Source: Arachidicoccus sp.
GTDB taxonomy: Bacteria > Bacteroidota > Bacteroidia > Chitinophagales > Chitinophagaceae
Direction of reading: 5' to 3'
Length of the DNA: 64,000 bases
NCBI GenBank assembly: GCA_028283605.1
Contig: JAPWKH010000014.1
Span: forward strand, 186,001 to 250,000
Under the pieces are notes generated by a model. It had not been told where the DNA came from, ran no database searches, and worked only from the letters and a program-made list of their open reading frames with translations. Below are positions 52,778 through 63,737 of the stretch, piece by piece (the stretch's first letter is position 1; every line of letters starts with the position of its first letter). The position numbers and the translations under genes are program-made.

Positions 52778-53452
52778 ATGAATAAGATAGCACAATCATT
52801 CGATGCAGTATCTGAAAAATACGATAAGCAAAGACCTTTACTCATTCCTTGCTTTGACGATTTCTATGGTATCGCATTGGAATTATCCAATGAAGCAAAG
52901 GATGTAAAAAACATTTTAGACATTGGTGCGGGCACAGGATTGATGAGCGCTTTCTTCGCAGAGAAATATCCCGATGCCGAAATTACGCTTGTAGATTTTT
53001 CAGAAGATATGTTGAATAAAGCAAAAGACAGGTTTAAAGGAAATGATAAGATTCATTACCTGCAAGCAGATTTTTCAACTGTAGAATTTGAAGATAATCA
53101 TTATGATTTAGTCGTTTCAGGTTTGGCAATTCATCACTTAAAACACAACTTGAAGAAGCTGTTGTTCGAAAAAATTTATTATGCGTTAAAAATAAACGGA
53201 ATCTTCATCAACGCAGACCAAGTGAAAGGAGCAACAGAATTTGCTGAAAGAATTTATACAGAAAAATGGCGCAATCATGTATTGAACGCACCGTTGAGTG
53301 AAGAAGATAAACAGAATACTTTTAAAAGAGTATCGCTCGATATTATGGCGCCGTTGAAAACACAATTAGATTGGCTAAGGGGAGCTGGTTTTCTTGAGGC
53401 AAATTGTTTTTATCAATATTTCAACTTTGTGGTTTTTGCCGCAAAAAAATAA
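52778..53452 (+). CDS. Class I SAM-dependent methyltransferase
   Basis: ILDIGAGTGLMSAFFAEKYPDAEITLVDFSEDML. Confidence 0.92.
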   Translation: MNKIAQSFDAVSEKYDKQRPLLIPCFDDFYGIALELSNEAKDVKNILDIGAGTGLMSAFFAEKYPDAEITLVDFSEDMLNKAKDRFKGNDKIHYLQADFSTVEFEDNHYDLVVSGLAIHHLKHNLKKLLFEKIYYALKINGIFINADQVKGATEFAERIYTEKWRNHVLNAPLSEEDKQNTFKRVSLDIMAPLKTQLDWLRGAGFLEANCFYQYFNFVVFAAKK

Positions 53453-53519
53453 TAAAAGTTAAGTTTTAGGTTATAAGTGGATTTTTTAAAATCAGACATT
53501 ATATAAATAATAAACTATT

Positions 53520-54170
53520 ATGGGCATTATAGTAAATCTCGAAGAAGATAAAAAGAAAGCAGGCGCGGCAAAGTTTCAGTCCGAAAGAAAAATTATTCAG
53601 TCAGCGGCAGTTCCTATTGAACTGGAAAATATCGATACAGACCAAATTATTCCTGCGCGTTTTCTGAAAGCTACTACACGCGAAGGTTTTGGAAAAAATT
53701 TGTTTCGTGACTGGCGTTACGAAAACGATGATGAAACAAAACCTGTGAAAGATTTTGCATTGAACAATAAAATTTATTCAGGCAAAATTCTTGTTGCTGG
53801 AAAAAATTTCGGTTGCGGTTCTTCACGCGAACATGCTGCTTGGGCAATTAAAGATTACGGCTTCGATGCAGTCGTTTCGAGCTTTTTCGCAGACATCTTT
53901 AAAAACAATGCATTAAATAATTTCTTGTTGCCTGTGCAAGTGAGCGAAGATTTTTTACAAAAATTATTCGACGCTATTCATAAAGACACAAACGCAGCCA
54001 TTGAAATCAATCTTGAAGAGCAATACATCAAAATCGTTGCTACAGGCGATCAGGAAAGTTTTGATATTAATCAGTACAAAAAGACTTGTTTGTTGAATGG
54101 CTTTGATGATATTGATTACTTGCTGAATATGCGTGAAGAAATAGAAGCATTTGAAAAAAATAAAGTCTAA
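53520..54170 (+). CDS. leuD: 3-isopropylmalate dehydratase small subunit
   Basis: [48 protein letters not shown]. Confidence 0.95.
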
Positions 54171-54718
54171 TGAAATTAGTATATATCATTCATGGATACA
54201 AAGCTTCCGCAGATCATCATTGGTTTGGCTGGCTAAAAAATGAATTGGGAAAAAGAAATATTACTGCAATTATTCTTTCTATGCCCAATTCTGAAAATCC
54301 TTTGAAAGATGAGTGGGTAAGTTATTTGCAAAAAAACATTATTATAGGTAGAAACACTTTTATTGTTGCGCACAGTTTGGGCTGCATAGCTACTTTATTA
54401 TTTATAAATAAAACAAATGCTAAGATTGGCGGTTTTATTGGAGTATCAGGTTTTGATGAGAAACTGAAAGGTATGCCTGATCTTGATAATTTTATTGACA
54501 ATGATATAGTTTATGAAAAAATCATTGCCAACGTTTCGAAACGTATTGTATTTGCTTCTCCTGAAGATTACATTGTTCCATTTCAACTTTCAGAAAAGTT
54601 GGCTAAGGATATAAAAGCACCGCTAATCAGCGTTCCCAATGCAGGACATTTTATGGCAGATGATGGGTATGTGTCTTTTCCTGAATTATTAAAAGAAATT
54701 AAAAAAATAATAGAGTAA
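54170..54718 (+). CDS. Alpha/beta hydrolase, RBBP9/YdeN family
   Basis: YIIHGYKASADHHWFGWLKNELG, AHSLGCIATLLF, PNAGHFMADDGY. Confidence 0.88.
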   Translation: MKLVYIIHGYKASADHHWFGWLKNELGKRNITAIILSMPNSENPLKDEWVSYLQKNIIIGRNTFIVAHSLGCIATLLFINKTNAKIGGFIGVSGFDEKLKGMPDLDNFIDNDIVYEKIIANVSKRIVFASPEDYIVPFQLSEKLAKDIKAPLISVPNAGHFMADDGYVSFPELLKEIKKIIE

Positions 54719-54723
54719 TAATA

Positions 54724-56190
54724 GTGCAAATAATAGCCAATTATATCACCGTAAAGCAAAATAATTTTGAAATAAAGGATATATTATTTTCTTTAAAAGA
54801 TAATGAAAACCTTGTAATTACAGGCCCATCGGGAAGTGGCAAAACTTCTCTTGCAAAGGCTTTTTGTGGTCAATTATTTATTACAGGTGATTTAAAAATT
54901 GTATATAATAAAGAAAATAATTTACTTGCGAAAGCCGTGTATGTTGAGCAACGCTATTCTATAAAAAATAGAAGTAATACAATTGATGGTTATTACCAGC
55001 AACGATATAATAGTTCTGACAATGAAGACAGTTATACGGTTTTGGAAGAATTGAAATTTATATTGGATGATGAACAAAGAGTAGATTTTTTGCTAAATGA
55101 ATTATCCATTGCTTATTTGAAAAACAAGCCATTACTTCAATTATCAAGCGGGGAACACAAACGTTTCCAATTAATCAAGGCTCTGCTGAACCCGGCACAA
55201 TTGATGATTTTGGATGAACCGTTTATAGGGTTAGATGTTGCAAGTAGAAAAAAACTAAACGATATTTTAAGTAACGTTTCTGAAAAGGGAACGAAATTTA
55301 TTATTATTGCGGGTGCACATCATCATTTTCCCGATTGCGTTACACATGTTTTGGAATTGGAAAATGGCAGGCAAAAAACTTTTATCAAGAAAGAAAATTT
55401 TGTTGCCACGCATCAGGCCGCCACATATTTCTTTGATAGTTCATCTTTGCCTCTGCAACACAATAATTGGAATTTTGAGAATGCAATTTTAATAAAAAAT
55501 GCTACGGTAAAATATGGTGAAAGAACAATCTTAAATAATATTAACTGGCAGGTAAAGAGAGGAGAGCGTTGGTTGTTGAAAGGCAAAAATGGCGCGGGCA
55601 AATCAACTCTAATGAGTTTGGTTTCCGGCGATAATCCGCAGGCTTATGCGAATGAAATTTATTTGTTCGATAAACGTAGAGGTTCGGGCGAAAGCATTTG
55701 GGATATTAAGAAAAATATTGGTTTTGTTTCACCTGAGTTATATGCATTTTTCGACAAGAACATTTCTTGTTTCGATACGGTGGCATCAGGCTATTTTGAT
55801 ACCATAGGCTTGTATAAAAAATTGTCGCAGGAGCAGATCAATCATATCAACGATTGGATGAAAGCCTTGAACGTAGCGGATTTGGCGCAAAAACGTTTAG
55901 CAAATGTTTCTTCGGGAATGCAACGCTTATTTTTATTAATCCGTGCCTTTATCAAAAATCCGCCGCTCTTGATTTTCGACGAACCTTGTCAGGGGTTGGA
56001 CGAATTTCAAACAGAAGCATTTGTGAAATTGGTAGATGATATTTGTGAACGGACAGATACGAGCGTTGTGTACATCAGTCATTATGAAAATGAAATTCCA
56101 AATTGTGTAACACAGGTTTTGGAATTAGAAAATGGGAATCAAAAAATTTATTTTTTCAATAAAAAACATTCAACACAATTAACTCAATAA
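54724..56190 (+). CDS. Dual-NBD ABC ATPase (ModF/PhrA-like)
   Basis: Two Walker A (GPSGSGKTS, GKNGAGKST), signatures LSSGEHKR and VSSGMQRL, Walker B LMILDEPF and LLIFDEPC; no TM domains; GTG start. Confidence 0.85.
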   Translation: MQIIANYITVKQNNFEIKDILFSLKDNENLVITGPSGSGKTSLAKAFCGQLFITGDLKIVYNKENNLLAKAVYVEQRYSIKNRSNTIDGYYQQRYNSSDNEDSYTVLEELKFILDDEQRVDFLLNELSIAYLKNKPLLQLSSGEHKRFQLIKALLNPAQLMILDEPFIGLDVASRKKLNDILSNVSEKGTKFIIIAGAHHHFPDCVTHVLELENGRQKTFIKKENFVATHQAATYFFDSSSLPLQHNNWNFENAILIKNATVKYGERTILNNINWQVKRGERWLLKGKNGAGKSTLMSLVSGDNPQAYANEIYLFDKRRGSGESIWDIKKNIGFVSPELYAFFDKNISCFDTVASGYFDTIGLYKKLSQEQINHINDWMKALNVADLAQKRLANVSSGMQRLFLLIRAFIKNPPLLIFDEPCQGLDEFQTEAFVKLVDDICERTDTSVVYISHYENEIPNCVTQVLELENGNQKIYFFNKKHSTQLTQ

Positions 56191-57418: not shown

Positions 57419-57450
57419 TTTGAATAAAAAAAATTGTATAAATACATTTG
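57419..57450 (+). promoter_or_regulatory. Putative Bacteroidota-type promoter P1 for the ilv leader (TTTG-N20-TACATTTG)
   Basis: TTTG 57419-57422, TACATTTG 57443-57450; same boxes and spacer as the leuA promoter candidate. Confidence 0.6.
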
Positions 57451-57537
57451 ACGCGTAGACGGTAGAAAATAAAAGAATGTATTTTATGACGGATTTATCA
57501 GATTAAAATAAATAGTTCTTTAAAAAATATTATTTTC

Positions 57538-57545
57538 TACATTTG
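57538..57545 (+). promoter_or_regulatory. Possible second promoter -7 box TACATTTG (P2), poor -33 match
   Basis: TACATTTGACG is a direct repeat of 57443-57453; 16 nt upstream of the leader ATG. Confidence 0.35.
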
Positions 57546-57561
57546 ACGTCTCGTAAAGATC

Positions 57562-57660
57562 ATGGACAAAAGTGTAAAAAATAAAATCAGTATATCAGTC
57601 ATCCTAATTATAGCGGTGGTTGTCATTATTCCTTCATCAGGAAGTGGTTTTATTTTGTAA
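57562..57660 (+). CDS. BCAA leader peptide, 32 aa
   Basis: [32 protein letters not shown]; 15 of 32 residues are Ile/Val/Leu, 10 of 11 in the run V13-I23; directly upstream of an antiterminator/terminator pair and ilvD. Confidence 0.85.
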
Positions 57661-57692
57661 ACATTCAAAATAAAGTTTTGAAAACCACTTCC
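57640..57692 (+). promoter_or_regulatory. Antiterminator hairpin (2:3 pairing) of the ilv attenuator
   Basis: GGAAGTGGTTTT (57640-57651, inside the leader ORF) is an exact 12-nt reverse complement of AAAACCACTTCC (57681-57692). Confidence 0.82.
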
Positions 57693-57715
57693 GAAACGAA
57701 GTGGTTTTTTGTTTT
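57681..57715 (+). terminator. Attenuator terminator (3:4 pairing) upstream of ilvD
   Basis: AAAACCACTTC - CGAAAC - GAAGTGGTTTT perfect 11-bp stem, 6-nt loop, followed by TTGTTTT. Confidence 0.9.
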
Positions 57716-57746
57716 AAAAGATTACTATTCAAATAAAAAATATGAA

Positions 57747-59435
57747 ATGAGCGAATTAAACAAATATTCCAAAACGCTTACGCAGGATGAAACACAGCCT
57801 GGCGCGCACGCACAATATTATGCAATTGGGTTTACTGATGAAGATTTCAACAAAGCGCAGATCGGAATTGTAAGCATGGGATGGGACGGTAATCCGTGCA
57901 ATATGCATCTAAATGACTTGGCAACTAAAGTGCGTGAAAGTGTGAATGATACGGAAGGTTTATTGGGACTTCGTTTTTATACAATTGGTGTAAGTGATGG
58001 CATGAGCAACGGCACGCCCGGCATGCGATACAGCCTCGTAAGCCGCGACTTAATCGCAGACAGCATAGAAACTGTTGCAGGCGCACAATACTATGACGGA
58101 CTTATTACCATTCCCGGCTGCGATAAAAATATGCCTGGTTCATTGATGGCGATGGCGCGTTTAAACAGGCCTTCTATTATGTTGTACGGAGGCACCATTG
58201 CAACCGGACATTATAAAGATAAACATGATTTAAATATAGTATCTGCATTTGAAGCTTTAGGACAAAAGATTGCAGGCAACATTAGTCAGGAAGATTTTAA
58301 AGGAATTATTCGCAATTCCTGTCCCGGCGCCGGCGCTTGCGGTGGCATGTACACTGCTAATACAATGGCAAGCGCTGCCGAAGCATTAGGAATGAGTTTG
58401 CCTTATTCTTCCTCCAATCCTGCACTAAGTGAAGATAAGCAAAATGAATGTATTGCAGCAGGCAAAGCCATACGGCTTTTGTTGGAAAAAGATATTAAGC
58501 CTAAAGATATTATGACCCGTAAAGCATTTGAAAATGCTGTAACCGTTATCATGGTATTGGGCGGAAGCACAAATGCGGTATTGCATTTATTGGCTGTTGC
58601 AAAAGCGGCAGGTGTAGATTTCAAGATTGATGACTTTCAGAAAATCAGCGATAAAATTCCTATGTTGGCAGACTTTAAGCCAAGCGGCAAATACCTTATG
58701 GAAGATTTGCATCAATACGGTGGTATTCCGGCAGTGATGAAATATTTATGGAAGAATGGTTTACTGCATGGAGATTGCTTAACTGTAACAGGAAAAACAG
58801 TTGCGGAGAATTTGGAAGAAGCAAAAGACTTGGATTTTAATGAACAAAAAATAGTGCAACCTTTGGAAAATCCTATCAAGAAAACCGGTCACTTACAAAT
58901 ATTGTACGGCAATCTTGCAGAAAAAGGAAGCGTTGCAAAAATTACCGGTAAAGAAGGAGAGCGCTTTGAAGGAACTGCGCGAGTATTCGACGGCGAACAT
59001 GATTTAATACAAGGGCTTTCAAGCGGACGCGTTCGCGCAGGCGATGTAGTTGTAATAAAAAATATCGGACCGAAAGGCGCGCCCGGAATGCCGGAAATGC
59101 TGAAACCTACCAGCGCCATCATTGGTTCAGGTTTGGGTAAATCAGTAGCATTGATTACAGACGGGCGTTTCAGCGGCGGTACGCACGGTTTTGTTGTAGG
59201 GCATATTACGCCGGAAGCTGTTGAAGGCGGATTAATTGGCTTGGTTAATGATGATGATATCATTGAAATAGATGCCACAAAAAATACAATCACTTTAAAA
59301 GTATCGGAAGAAGAAATTGCAAAACGAAGAGCTGCATGGAAAAAGCCTGAACCGAAAGCAAGAAATGGTGTGTTGTATAAATATGCAAAATTCGTAAAAT
59401 CAGCAAGCGAAGGTTGTGTAACGGATGAGGATTAA
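57747..59435 (+). CDS. ilvD: Dihydroxy-acid dehydratase
   Basis: [58 protein letters not shown]; start at MSELNKYSK, not the track's 57678 which lies beside the terminator. Confidence 0.95.
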
Positions 59436-59462: not shown

Positions 59463-61208
59463 ATGGAAACTTTAGATATTACAAAAGAAACAACAGCTGA
59501 AAAGCCGCAGCCCGCAAAGGTTTCGCTCAGCGGCAGTCAAGCCGTTTTGGAAGCATTGATTGCGGAAAATGTAAAAACAGTTTTCGGTTATCCCGGCGGC
59601 GCTATCATGCCTATATACGATGCGCTATATGATTATAAAGATAAGCTTGAGCACATACTGGTGCGTCACGAACAAGGCGGAATCCACGCTGCACAAGGCT
59701 TTGCACGTGCATCCGGAGAAGTCGGTGTAGTATTTGCAACAAGCGGCCCTGGCGCAACCAATCTGGTTACGGGCATTGCAGATGCAATGATCGACAGTAC
59801 GCCATTGGTATGTATAACAGGACAAGTATTTGCTCATCTTTTGGGTACGGATGCTTTTCAGGAAACAGATGTGATAAACATAACAACGCCGGTTACCAAA
59901 TGGAATTATCAGGTAACGGAAGCGTCGGAAATTCCAAGTGTTTTGGCGAAAGCCTTTTACATCGCGCGTTCCGGCCGTCCCGGCCCAGTGTTGGTAGATA
60001 TTACCAAAAATGCACAAGTCGAAAAATTCGATTACAAAGGTTACATTCCTTGCAATCATATTCGCAGTTATTTGCCAAAGCCGAAAGTGAGAAAAAAATT
60101 TATTGCTGAAGCGGCAAAACTTATTAATGAAGCAAAGAAACCATTCGTATTATTTGGACAAGGAATTATTTTAGGCGAAGCAGAAAAAGAATTTCAAACA
60201 TTTATTGAGAAAGCCGGTCTTCCTTCTGCATTTACCATTATGGGCGAAAGCGCTATTCCTTCCGATCATCCGTTAAATGTGGGAATGCTGGGTATGCATG
60301 GCAATTATGCACCGAATGTTTTGACGAATGAATGCGATGTGTTAATAGCTATTGGTATGCGCTTCGATGATCGCGTTACCGGGAGATTGGATAAATATGC
60401 GAAGCAGGCAAAAATTATTCATCTGGATATTGACCCTGCTGAAATTGATAAGAACGTGAAAACAACTGTTCCTGTTTGGGGCGATTGTAAAGAAACATTG
60501 CCTTTGCTTACCGAATTAATCAATAAAACAGAACACACGGCATGGCTGCAGCGTTTTCGTGATTTGGAACAAGAAGAAATAAAACAAGTTATCAACGAAG
60601 AATTAAATCCGTCCACAGAAATTATGTCGATGGGCGAGGTGATTAAAGTGTTGAATAAATTGACGAATGAAGATGCAATAATTGTAACCGATGTAGGGCA
60701 GCATCAAATGGTAGCTTGCCGCTATGCGAAGTTTAAAAATTCGCGCAGCAATATTACTTCCGGCGGATTGGGAACAATGGGTTTTGGTTTGCCCGCAGCT
60801 ATTGGTGCAAAATACGGTGCACCAGAAAGAACAGTTGTTTCAATCAGCGGCGACGGTGGCTTTCAAATGACGATACAAGAGTTGGGAACAATTATGCAAT
60901 TCGGTGCAGATGTAAAAATTCTTATTTTAAACAATCAGTTTTTAGGAATGGTGCGTCAATGGCAGGAATTATTTAACGACAGAAGATATTCTTTCGTAAA
61001 CATTACTTCGCCCGATTATATAACAGTTGCGAAAGGTTACGGCATTGCAGGCAAAAGAATCGACAAGAGAGAAGATTTGGAAAGTTCGTTACAAGAAATG
61101 TTGAGTTATAAGGGTTCTTATCTTTTGGAAGTAATGGTTGGGAAAGAAAATAATGTATTTCCAATGGTACCGCAAGGTTGCAGCGTAAGTGAGATCAGAT
61201 TAAAGTAA
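59463..61208 (+). CDS. ilvB: Acetolactate synthase large subunit
   Basis: TPP enzyme: VFGYPGGAIMPIYDAL, RHEQGGIHAAQGFARASG, GDGGFQMTIQELGT. Confidence 0.96.
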   Translation: METLDITKETTAEKPQPAKVSLSGSQAVLEALIAENVKTVFGYPGGAIMPIYDALYDYKDKLEHILVRHEQGGIHAAQGFARASGEVGVVFATSGPGATNLVTGIADAMIDSTPLVCITGQVFAHLLGTDAFQETDVINITTPVTKWNYQVTEASEIPSVLAKAFYIARSGRPGPVLVDITKNAQVEKFDYKGYIPCNHIRSYLPKPKVRKKFIAEAAKLINEAKKPFVLFGQGIILGEAEKEFQTFIEKAGLPSAFTIMGESAIPSDHPLNVGMLGMHGNYAPNVLTNECDVLIAIGMRFDDRVTGRLDKYAKQAKIIHLDIDPAEIDKNVKTTVPVWGDCKETLPLLTELINKTEHTAWLQRFRDLEQEEIKQVINEELNPSTEIMSMGEVIKVLNKLTNEDAIIVTDVGQHQMVACRYAKFKNSRSNITSGGLGTMGFGLPAAIGAKYGAPERTVVSISGDGGFQMTIQELGTIMQFGADVKILILNNQFLGMVRQWQELFNDRRYSFVNITSPDYITVAKGYGIAGKRIDKREDLESSLQEMLSYKGSYLLEVMVGKENNVFPMVPQGCSVSEIRLK

Positions 61209-61224
61209 TGATGATTTAATAAAA

Positions 61225-61512
61225 ATGATAACGGAAATAGCCATATTAAATATTAAGCAAAATCAATCGGAAGAATATTTAAAATCTTTCGCGAAAGCAG
61301 CGTCAATCATTACTGCAAGCGAAGGATATATTTCTCATGAACTACAAAAATGTGTTGAGCATGAAGATAAATTTTTGCTTACCGTAAAATGGCAAACATT
61401 AGAAAATCATACGGAAGGTTTCAGAAAAAGTGAAGCTTATCAGGAATGGAAGAGATTGTTACATCATTACTATGATCCATTTCCGGAAGTAGAACATTAT
61501 TCTCTATTATAA
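61225..61512 (+). CDS. Antibiotic biosynthesis monooxygenase (ABM)-domain protein
   Basis: About 95 aa, ITASEGYISHELQKCVEHEDKFLLTVKWQTLENHTEGFRKSEAYQEW. Confidence 0.82.
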   Translation: MITEIAILNIKQNQSEEYLKSFAKAASIITASEGYISHELQKCVEHEDKFLLTVKWQTLENHTEGFRKSEAYQEWKRLLHHYYDPFPEVEHYSLL

Positions 61513-61550: not shown

Positions 61551-62141
61551 ATGAACAAACAAGAATTCACAATATCTGTATATACCGAAAACCAAATCGG
61601 CTTGCTCAACCGCATTGCCATCATGTTTTCGCGCAGAAAAATCAATGTCGAGAGTCTTAATGTTTCTCCTACGGAAATTGAAGGCATCTCTCGCTTTACC
61701 ATCGTTATCAACGAAGCCGAAGATGTAGTTAGAAAACTTGCAAGACAAATTGAAAAGCAAATCGAAGTATTGAAAGTTTATTACAATACCAATGAAGAAG
61801 TTATTTGGCAGGAGTTGGCTTTATACAAAGTGCCTACCGATGTGATTTCCGAAAAAGCAAAAGTGGAGCGGCTTTTACGCGAATATGGTGCGCAGGCTGT
61901 TGTTATTCGCAGTGATTATACAGTGTTTGAAACTGTTGGTCATCGTGAAGAAATCGATGGATTACTCGAAGCGTTAGCGCCCTATGGATTGATTGAATTT
62001 GTACGCAGCGCACGCGTAGCTATTATCAAAGATAGCGAAGGGTTTCACAATAAATTAAAAGAATTCGAAAACAGAGAACCTTCAGAAGCGGTTATCGAAA
62101 ACGAATTTTTAAATAAACAAAGCGAAGTATTTACGATGTAA
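61551..62141 (+). CDS. ilvN: Acetolactate synthase small subunit
   Basis: ACT domain FTISVYTENQIGLLNRIAIMFSRRKINVESLNVSPTE. Confidence 0.94.
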   Translation: MNKQEFTISVYTENQIGLLNRIAIMFSRRKINVESLNVSPTEIEGISRFTIVINEAEDVVRKLARQIEKQIEVLKVYYNTNEEVIWQELALYKVPTDVISEKAKVERLLREYGAQAVVIRSDYTVFETVGHREEIDGLLEALAPYGLIEFVRSARVAIIKDSEGFHNKLKEFENREPSEAVIENEFLNKQSEVFTM

Positions 62142-62166: not shown

Positions 62167-62634
62167 ATGCAGTATTCTATAAAATATATCAGAAAAAACA
62201 GAGAATTATTTTTAAAATTACTTGACGGTTTAACCATTGAACAACTTAATAAAATACCGACAGGATTTAATAATAATATTATATGGAATTTCGGTCACAT
62301 TATTGTTTCCACGCAATTATTAGCGTACGTTCGCTCCGGCGTACAAGTCGATTTTGAAGTAAGCTTCCAAGAAAAATTCAAAAGCGGAACAAGGCCGGAA
62401 AGTTTTATTACACAAGAAGAAATTGAAGAATTAAAAGAACTGTTATACTCAACTTTGGATCTAATAGAAGAAAATGAAAAAAAGAATTATTTTGACAAAG
62501 TAATTCCTTTTTCAACTCAAACGTACGGATTTGAAATGAATACATTTGAAGAAGTTTTGGCTTGCATTCAATCGCACGAATCGTTGCATTACGGATACGC
62601 TTTGGCTCAAAAAAGATTAGTAAATAATTTATAA
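62167..62634 (+). CDS. DinB-family protein
   Basis: LLDGLTIEQLNKIPTGFNNNIIWNFGHIIVSTQLL ... HESLHYGYALAQKRLV; DinB metal-site-like His positions. Confidence 0.82.
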   Translation: MQYSIKYIRKNRELFLKLLDGLTIEQLNKIPTGFNNNIIWNFGHIIVSTQLLAYVRSGVQVDFEVSFQEKFKSGTRPESFITQEEIEELKELLYSTLDLIEENEKKNYFDKVIPFSTQTYGFEMNTFEEVLACIQSHESLHYGYALAQKRLVNNL

Positions 62635-62690: not shown

Positions 62691-63737
62691 ATGGCAAAAT
62701 TAAATTTCGGCGGTGTTGAAGAAAATGTAGTAACACGCGAAGAATTTCCGCTTGCGAAAGCACAGGAAGTATTACAGAATGAAACAGTAGCAGTTATCGG
62801 TTACGGTGTTCAAGGACCGGGACAAGCATTGAATCAAAGAGATAACGGTATCAATGTAATCGTTGGTCAAAGAAAAAACTCAAAAACATGGGATAAAGCT
62901 ATCGCTGACGGATTTGTTGAAGGACAAACTTTATTCGAAATAGAAGAAGCATTGGAAAAAGGAACAATCATCTGTTACCTATTGAGCGATGCTGCCCAAA
63001 TCGAATTGTGGCCTACCGTAAAAAAGCATTTGACTGCCGGGAAAGCTTTGTATTTCTCTCACGGTTTCGGTATTACATTCAACGAGCAAACAGGCATTAT
63101 TCCGCCTGCAGATGTTGATGTATTCTTAGTTGCACCAAAAGGCTCGGGAACATCTTTACGCAGAATGTTTTTGCAAGGCCGCGGCTTGAACAGTTCGTTC
63201 GCAATTTTCCAGGATGCCACAGGCAAAGCGAAAGACAGAGTAATTGCTTTAGGCATTGCAGTAGGAAGCGGTTATTTGTTCGAAACCGATTTCAGAAAAG
63301 AAGTATTCAGCGATTTAACCGGCGAACGCGGAACTTTGATGGGTGCAATACAGGGAATTTTTGCTGCACAATATCAGGTATTGCGCGACAAAGGTCATAC
63401 GCCTTCTGAGGCATTCAACGAAACAGTAGAAGAATTGACACAGTCATTGATGCCGTTGGTTGCGGAGAACGGGATGGATTGGATGTATGCGAACTGTTCA
63501 ACAACAGCACAACGCGGCGCGTTGGATTGGTGGAAAAAATTCCGCGATGCTACATTGCCGGTCTTTACCGAATTATATGAAAGCGTAGCAACCGGTAAAG
63601 AATCTAAGCGTTCTATCGACAGCAATTCTCAACCCGATTATCGCGAAAAACTAAATGAAGAATTGAAAGAGCTTCGTGAAAGCGAATTATGGCAGGCAGG
63701 TAAAACGGTAAGAAGTTTAAGACCCGAGAATAATTAG
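62691..63737 (+). CDS. ilvC: Ketol-acid reductoisomerase (class I size)
   Basis: VAVIGYGVQGPGQALNQRDNGINVIVGQRKNSKTW, FSHGFGITF, VAPKGSGTSLRRMF, EVFSDLTGERGTLMGAIQG. Confidence 0.95.
   Translation: MAKLNFGGVEENVVTREEFPLAKAQEVLQNETVAVIGYGVQGPGQALNQRDNGINVIVGQRKNSKTWDKAIADGFVEGQTLFEIEEALEKGTIICYLLSDAAQIELWPTVKKHLTAGKALYFSHGFGITFNEQTGIIPPADVDVFLVAPKGSGTSLRRMFLQGRGLNSSFAIFQDATGKAKDRVIALGIAVGSGYLFETDFRKEVFSDLTGERGTLMGAIQGIFAAQYQVLRDKGHTPSEAFNETVEELTQSLMPLVAENGMDWMYANCSTTAQRGALDWWKKFRDATLPVFTELYESVATGKESKRSIDSNSQPDYREKLNEELKELRESELWQAGKTVRSLRPENN

Follow-up and report, generated by a model that had tools for sequence, protein, structure and literature searches.

Does the short stretch of DNA in front of ilvD in Arachidicoccus sp. 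(family Chitinophagaceae) act as a transcription attenuator, in which a ribosome reading a leader peptide sets the expression of the genes for branched-chain amino acids (BCAA)? The locus lies in the window, the whole 64,000-nucleotide stretch that was analysed. An earlier note, made from the sequence alone, had proposed such a device and had given the gene order behind it as ilvD-ilvB-ilvN-ilvC. This order holds: NCBIfam profiles identify ilvB, ilvN, and ilvC, and homology identifies ilvD (Table 1). The profiles also place leuC, leuD, and leuB upstream, with the end of leuB about 250 nt 5' of the leader open reading frame (ORF). At window 54724-56190 and 52778-54718 the leu genes are split by an ORF for a ModF-like double ABC ATPase, a methyltransferase-like ORF, and a 182-aa ORF that has no NCBIfam match. 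Further ORFs lie between ilvB, ilvN, and ilvC (window 61225-61512 and 62167-62634); the second of these (155 aa) has no match in NCBIfam.

Table 1. Features of the ilvD leader and of the genes behind it, in window positions
Feature	Position	Strand	Basis
Weak element GTTCTTT upstream of the -7 box	57515-57521	+	sequence
Promoter -7 box TACATTTG	57538-57545	+	sequence compared with the Bacteroidota consensus TAnnTTTG
Leader peptide ORF, 32 codons	57562-57660	+	sequence; homologous leaders in relatives
Regulatory codon run, leader codons 13-23 (11 codons)	57598-57630	+	sequence; I/V/L class kept in relatives
Arm 2 GGAAGTGGTTTT, within the final codons of the leader ORF	57640-57651	+	12/12 complementary to arm 3
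Small hairpin ATTTTG/CAAAAT in the 2:3 loop	57652-57671	+	folds; sequences of genus members
Arm 3 AAAACCACTTCC, common to antiterminator and terminator	57681-57692	+	sequence, relatives
Arm 4 GAAGTGGTTTT, closing the terminator hairpin	57698-57708	+	forms 11 perfect base pairs with arm 3
Terminator T-tract TTTTTTGTTTT, overlapping the end of arm 4	57705-57715	+	sequence
ilvD, dihydroxy-acid dehydratase, first gene controlled (predicted)	57747-59435	+	homology across Bacteroidota
ilvB, acetolactate synthase large subunit	59463-61208	+	TIGR00118, 723.7 bits
ilvN, acetolactate synthase small subunit	61551-62141	+	TIGR00119, above cut-off
ilvC, ketol-acid reductoisomerase	62691-63737	+	TIGR00465, above cut-off

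The element was verified to the base. The leader ORF, its regulatory codons, and arms 2, 3, and 4 all lie where the earlier note had put them and have the sequences it gave; the exact complementarity of arms 2 and 3 and the perfect 11-bp terminator with its U-tract, also claimed there, agree with the sequence. The codon run consists of Ile and Val codons with one Leu codon. The leader stop codon is at 57658, and arm 3 begins 20 nt beyond it. Arm 4 is separated from arm 3 by a short loop and is followed by the T-tract, 37 nt upstream of ilvD. The 2:3 and 3:4 pairings are mutually exclusive, and the latter gives the U-tailed terminator. Two parts are absent from the earlier note: a promoter box immediately 5' of the leader ORF, which resembles the Bacteroidota -7 consensus TAnnTTTG named in PMC9723704, and a genus-specific helix within the 2:3 loop. 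No Shine-Dalgarno sequence is seen at the start of the leader ORF. About 95 nt upstream of the promoter box, a second promoter-like pair, TTTG..TACATTTG (window 57419-57450), repeats the string TACATTTGACG and is a possible second start site.

From this layout we infer that the leader ORF is translated, that its ribosome is coupled to the RNA polymerase transcribing it, and that the 3:4 hairpin functions as a terminator. When the supply of charged Ile- or Val-tRNA runs low, the ribosome would stall within the regulatory codons, leaving arm 2 free to pair with newly made arm 3; the terminator would not form, and the operon would be transcribed. When amino acids are plentiful, the ribosome would instead reach the stop codon and cover much of arm 2, arm 3 would pair with arm 4, and transcription would end near 57710-57715. 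With a ribosome footprint of the usual size, the geometry fits control by stalling: a ribosome at the stop codon reaches arm 2 and not arm 3, while one on the codon run keeps clear of arm 2.

Predicted folds are in line with this scheme. RNA from 57550 to 57716 folds much better than shuffled sequence (z -4.0, 0/200). The folding suggested in the earlier note gives the 3:4 terminator for the full-length leader RNA and the 2:3 hairpin when the RNA is cut before arm 4. The terminator ranks in the top two by strength among the hairpin/T-tract sites of a 14-kb region; that region holds 13 such sites versus 12.1 in shuffles and thus no excess of them. In the window the predicted stability of 2:3 (-19.2 kcal/mol, internal helix included) exceeds that of 3:4 (-13.2 kcal/mol); some relatives (L061, L068, L051) have a weaker 2:3 pairing, at -8.5 to -10.5 kcal/mol. 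A weak UUCCU/AGGAA hairpin (57629-57633 with 57639-57643) is a candidate for a protecting 1:2 structure in the window, but across relatives a 1:2 protector hairpin is no better than in shuffled sequence (mean z -0.14). Since 2:3 is predicted to be the stabler hairpin and there is no significant 1:2 pairing, the outcome should be a matter of timing, and one may conjecture that readthrough would be the default of an untranslated leader, in contrast to the trp leader of E. coli.

The device recurs in relatives, more often than chance would give. A naive search confined to the 600 nt 5' of ilvD recovered leaders at roughly one locus in five: at least 9 Ile, Leu, or Val residues within 11 codons occurred in 23 of 109 ilvD upstream regions, compared with 0.6% of shuffles. 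This search missed many leaders at loci where ilvE precedes ilvD, as a covariance model revealed. That model (R1), built from 17 leaders, found 57 leaders among the 99 loci scanned around ilvD, and a second model (R2), run on genomes of the family, matched 153 of 249 genomes and 69 of 95 genera at E <= 0.001. The window's own genome contains one full-strength match (E 2.8e-14), the next best having an E of 0.3. For all of the best 30 family matches, ilvD or ilvE starts 9-343 nt downstream; thus, the element sits before the opening gene of the operon, which is ilvD in some species and ilvE in others. Among the 36 family genomes common to both surveys, a full match to the element is present in 22 of 28 with ilvD and in none of 8 without it (p 1e-4; there was one partial, weak match), although the model was trained in part on those same genomes. 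Tallies at E <= 0.01 (123 of 398 phylum genomes; 69 of 81 in one family) are inflated by terminator-only partial matches and were excluded; only matches with a checked downstream gene were counted. One family genome (G010) has a full-strength leader-terminator (L149) without a BCAA gene behind it, the next ORF lying about 275 nt on; its ilvD is located elsewhere.

The earlier note had named conservation of the leader ORF and of the complementary arms in relatives as the check on its attenuator interpretation. When this check was run, both proved to be conserved, with compensatory changes. What is kept is the leader ORF, the codon class, the spacing, the terminator, and the 2:3 complementarity. 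An in-frame ATG is present in 54 of the 57 leaders. Arm 2 starts 18 nt 5' of the stop codon in the window and in most relatives, and the arm 3 core lies about 22-29 nt 3' of the relatives' stop codons. The same promoter box lies no more than 160 nt 5' of the codon run in 30 of the 57 relatives, compared with 10% of shuffles, and is usually 16-29 nt upstream of the ATG.

The arms change together as RNA. Within the 57 relatives, 9 of the 10 pairs of the 3:4 helix show changes on both sides, and 87% of its pairs are standard, in an alignment that was itself fitted to 3:4. The 2:3 helix was left out of the fitting; it has 82% standard pairs, versus 45-61% when one arm is slid along the other. Double-changed cells in 2:3 number 12, compared with 5.0 in shuffles, and 1 shuffle in 500 equalled its covariation score; the count of 2:3 pairs that carry double changes (2) does not exceed that in shuffles. 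Because MAFFT misregistered some arms (L005, L014, L040), the pairs were counted again on a model-fitted alignment, and an alignment-free permutation test was added. In this test each leader's own 2:3 duplex averaged -14.8 kcal/mol versus -13.5 with swapped arms, a value beyond all 5000 permutations. In all of these tests the related sequences are not independent, so that significance is overstated. The arms fall into three types, CCACTTCC in the window's genus, CGCCTC in most of the family, and CTTCCTCC in Chitinophaga and its relatives, and each type pairs best with its own arm 2. Even so, it is hard to account in another way for three such concerted types within one family.

The coding side of the leader behaves differently. 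The codon run is kept as a residue class (III/VVV/III, with the order changing) and not residue by residue. The two Gly codons within arm 2, in contrast, are nearly fixed as GGA-GGT, apparently because base pairing requires them. Val is written GTG in 46% and GTC in 35% of the leader Val codons, compared with 16% and 3% in six genes of the window.

Similar leaders are found elsewhere in the phylum, and their codons follow the pathway of the gene behind them. Among the best 20 model matches outside the home family, 18 lie before ilvE, ilvD, an ilvN-like gene, ilvA, or thrA. In these other families Ile/Val runs precede ilvE, ilvD, and ilvN; the ilvA leaders (MKNFNNIIIAIISIIAIQQ) contain Ile codons, with Val absent or rarely present once; and the thrA leader (MTINNTTIITIITTGINFGGR) contains Thr and Ile codons. 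No argument speaks more strongly for a ribosome reading the leader as a sensor than this agreement between codons and pathway.

Other arrangements were seen as well. Tandem pairs of leader-terminator modules, complete or nearly so, occur in one flavobacterial family at up to six loci, before ilvE (L157, L165), an ilvN-like ACT gene (L161, L164, L166), or ilvD (L307). At L165, for example, MNTRILNIISIIVVVIIISQG is followed by MNILVNIIISVVIISSSPS, with a terminator behind each; at L164 and L166 the second terminator falls under the stem threshold used. His-rich ORFs precede hisG in about two thirds of 30 Bacteroidota loci. One of these is in the window's own genome (L246, on C23, minus strand), where a GTG-start ORF, MNKKSHTHHHHFLSEG, is followed by a GC-rich hairpin and a T-tract. 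Thr/Ile-rich leader ORFs precede thrA at five loci (L191, which is in the window's own genome on C19, minus strand, and L202, L205, L197, and L180), and their stop codons lie within a short hairpin (like ACAACCCCNTARGGGGT). In three of the five, a conserved stretch like ATATCGCCAC-TGG comes next, and an intrinsic terminator is not evident. Leu-rich leaders before leuA were absent from all 30 loci examined. The tandem ilv modules and the hisG and thrA leaders suggest a phylum-wide habit of attenuation. In its full form this would comprise one Ile/Val leader family before the ilv opening gene, leaders with Ile codons (ilvA), Thr/Ile codons (thrA), and His codons (hisG), and a flavobacterial double gate before ilvE, ilvD, or ilvN; whether so broad a picture is right could at present go either way.

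For the window itself the case is far firmer. It is highly likely that a ribosome-mediated transcription attenuator controls ilvD-ilvB-ilvN-ilvC, and since the device is kept in most of the relatives examined and its parts change together, the leader very probably works, in the classic Escherichia coli manner, as a sensor of starvation. Several classes of attenuator combine a terminator with a competing antiterminator, and the sensor could in principle be a riboswitch, a T-box, or an RNA-binding protein, with the ORF incidental. This is very improbable: no structured aptamer is found 5' of the arms, where the conserved part is instead an ORF whose codons (Ile/Val, Ile, or Thr/Ile) match the pathway, and Rfam yields no T-box or riboswitch match even at E <= 1. 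The T-box covariance model likewise had no match at E <= 1, either in the 2 kb surrounding the element or at any of 16 related loci.

Slimmer still is the chance that the hairpin constitutively terminates transcription of the upstream leu genes, beside an unregulated gene for a small membrane peptide. The leader peptide is indeed hydrophobic, and leuB ends nearby. However, a promoter box and an ORF stand between leuB and the terminator, the residues vary within I/V/L while the arms covary as RNA, and this explanation gives no reason for the complementarity of arm 2 inside the ORF. We give equally little weight to the idea that leader translation acts through Rho or through translation of ilvD and not through the intrinsic terminator. 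Some thrA leaders, with a similar codon run and no obvious intrinsic terminator, indicate that other outputs may exist in the Bacteroidota, but the terminator here is strong, covaries, and lies directly upstream of ilvD.

How does this putative attenuator relate to known ones? No Rfam family covers the element. Phe_leader (RF01859) scores 23 bits in the window against a gathering threshold of 55, and relatives likewise stay below gathering for Thr_leader (RF00506; at most 40.6 versus 55) and Leu_leader (RF00512; 28.1 versus 50). The architecture is like that of these three families, and some Bacteroidota leaders match them weakly, but they are not members. When the Bacteroidota model was applied to four E. 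coli attenuator regions, it gave 43.7 bits for ilvL, 22.8 for thrL, 20.4 for ivbL, and 11.4 for leuL, making ilvL the closest relative by sequence of the four. The ilvL leader, which precedes the ilvXGMEDA operon, also has 32 residues, a VVVIII run followed by Pro, and a terminator with a T-tract; its codons are GTG GTG GTG ATT ATT ATC, compared with a Bacteroidota leader consensus of GTGGTNGTCATTATTATT. It is led by a Shine-Dalgarno sequence and forms further alternative hairpins, whereas in the Bacteroidota leader arm 2 lies in the last codons, a Shine-Dalgarno sequence is not seen, and a 1:2 hairpin lacks statistical support. The likeness to ilvL may reflect common descent or convergence, and the shared codon pattern could give 43.7 bits by convergence.

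The likeliest prior comparative-genomics prediction is reportedly that of Lopatovskaya et al. 2010, which may have predicted some such attenuators. The earlier note's belief that they are sparsely documented in Bacteroidota is a fair one, going by the following literature. For Flavobacterium psychrophilum, leader-peptide attenuation of amino-acid operons is suspected from transcriptome and structure data; this is the same phylum and the same proposed mechanism, given one sentence in the main text (PMC9723704). A remark on leader-like sORFs exists for Bacteroides thetaiotaomicron (PMC7366714), and the Rfam motif Bacteroid-trp is an earlier hint (PMC2864571). Outside the phylum, the ilvBNC operon of Corynebacterium is described as having an attenuator/uORF with a BCAA leader before the ilv genes (PMC10272879, PMC11857589); compared by description only, it is similar in placing a BCAA leader before ilv and different in phylum, leader, and genes. 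The kind of mechanism is therefore already known, and the Bacteroidota leader adds to it a covariance model and sets of leaders that Rfam lacks.

The leaders bear on a large phylum, with members in soil, water, and the gut, in which leaders lack Shine-Dalgarno sequences and the control of amino-acid synthesis has been little studied. The leader sets predict which codons sense which amino acid there, and the likeness to E. coli ilvL prompts one to ask whether the two share an origin or have converged. The element also offers a concrete and well-conserved test case for transcription-translation coupling in Bacteroidota. If attenuation is as wide as the broader picture has it, coupling would be tight enough for leader sensing in a phylum largely without Shine-Dalgarno sequences.
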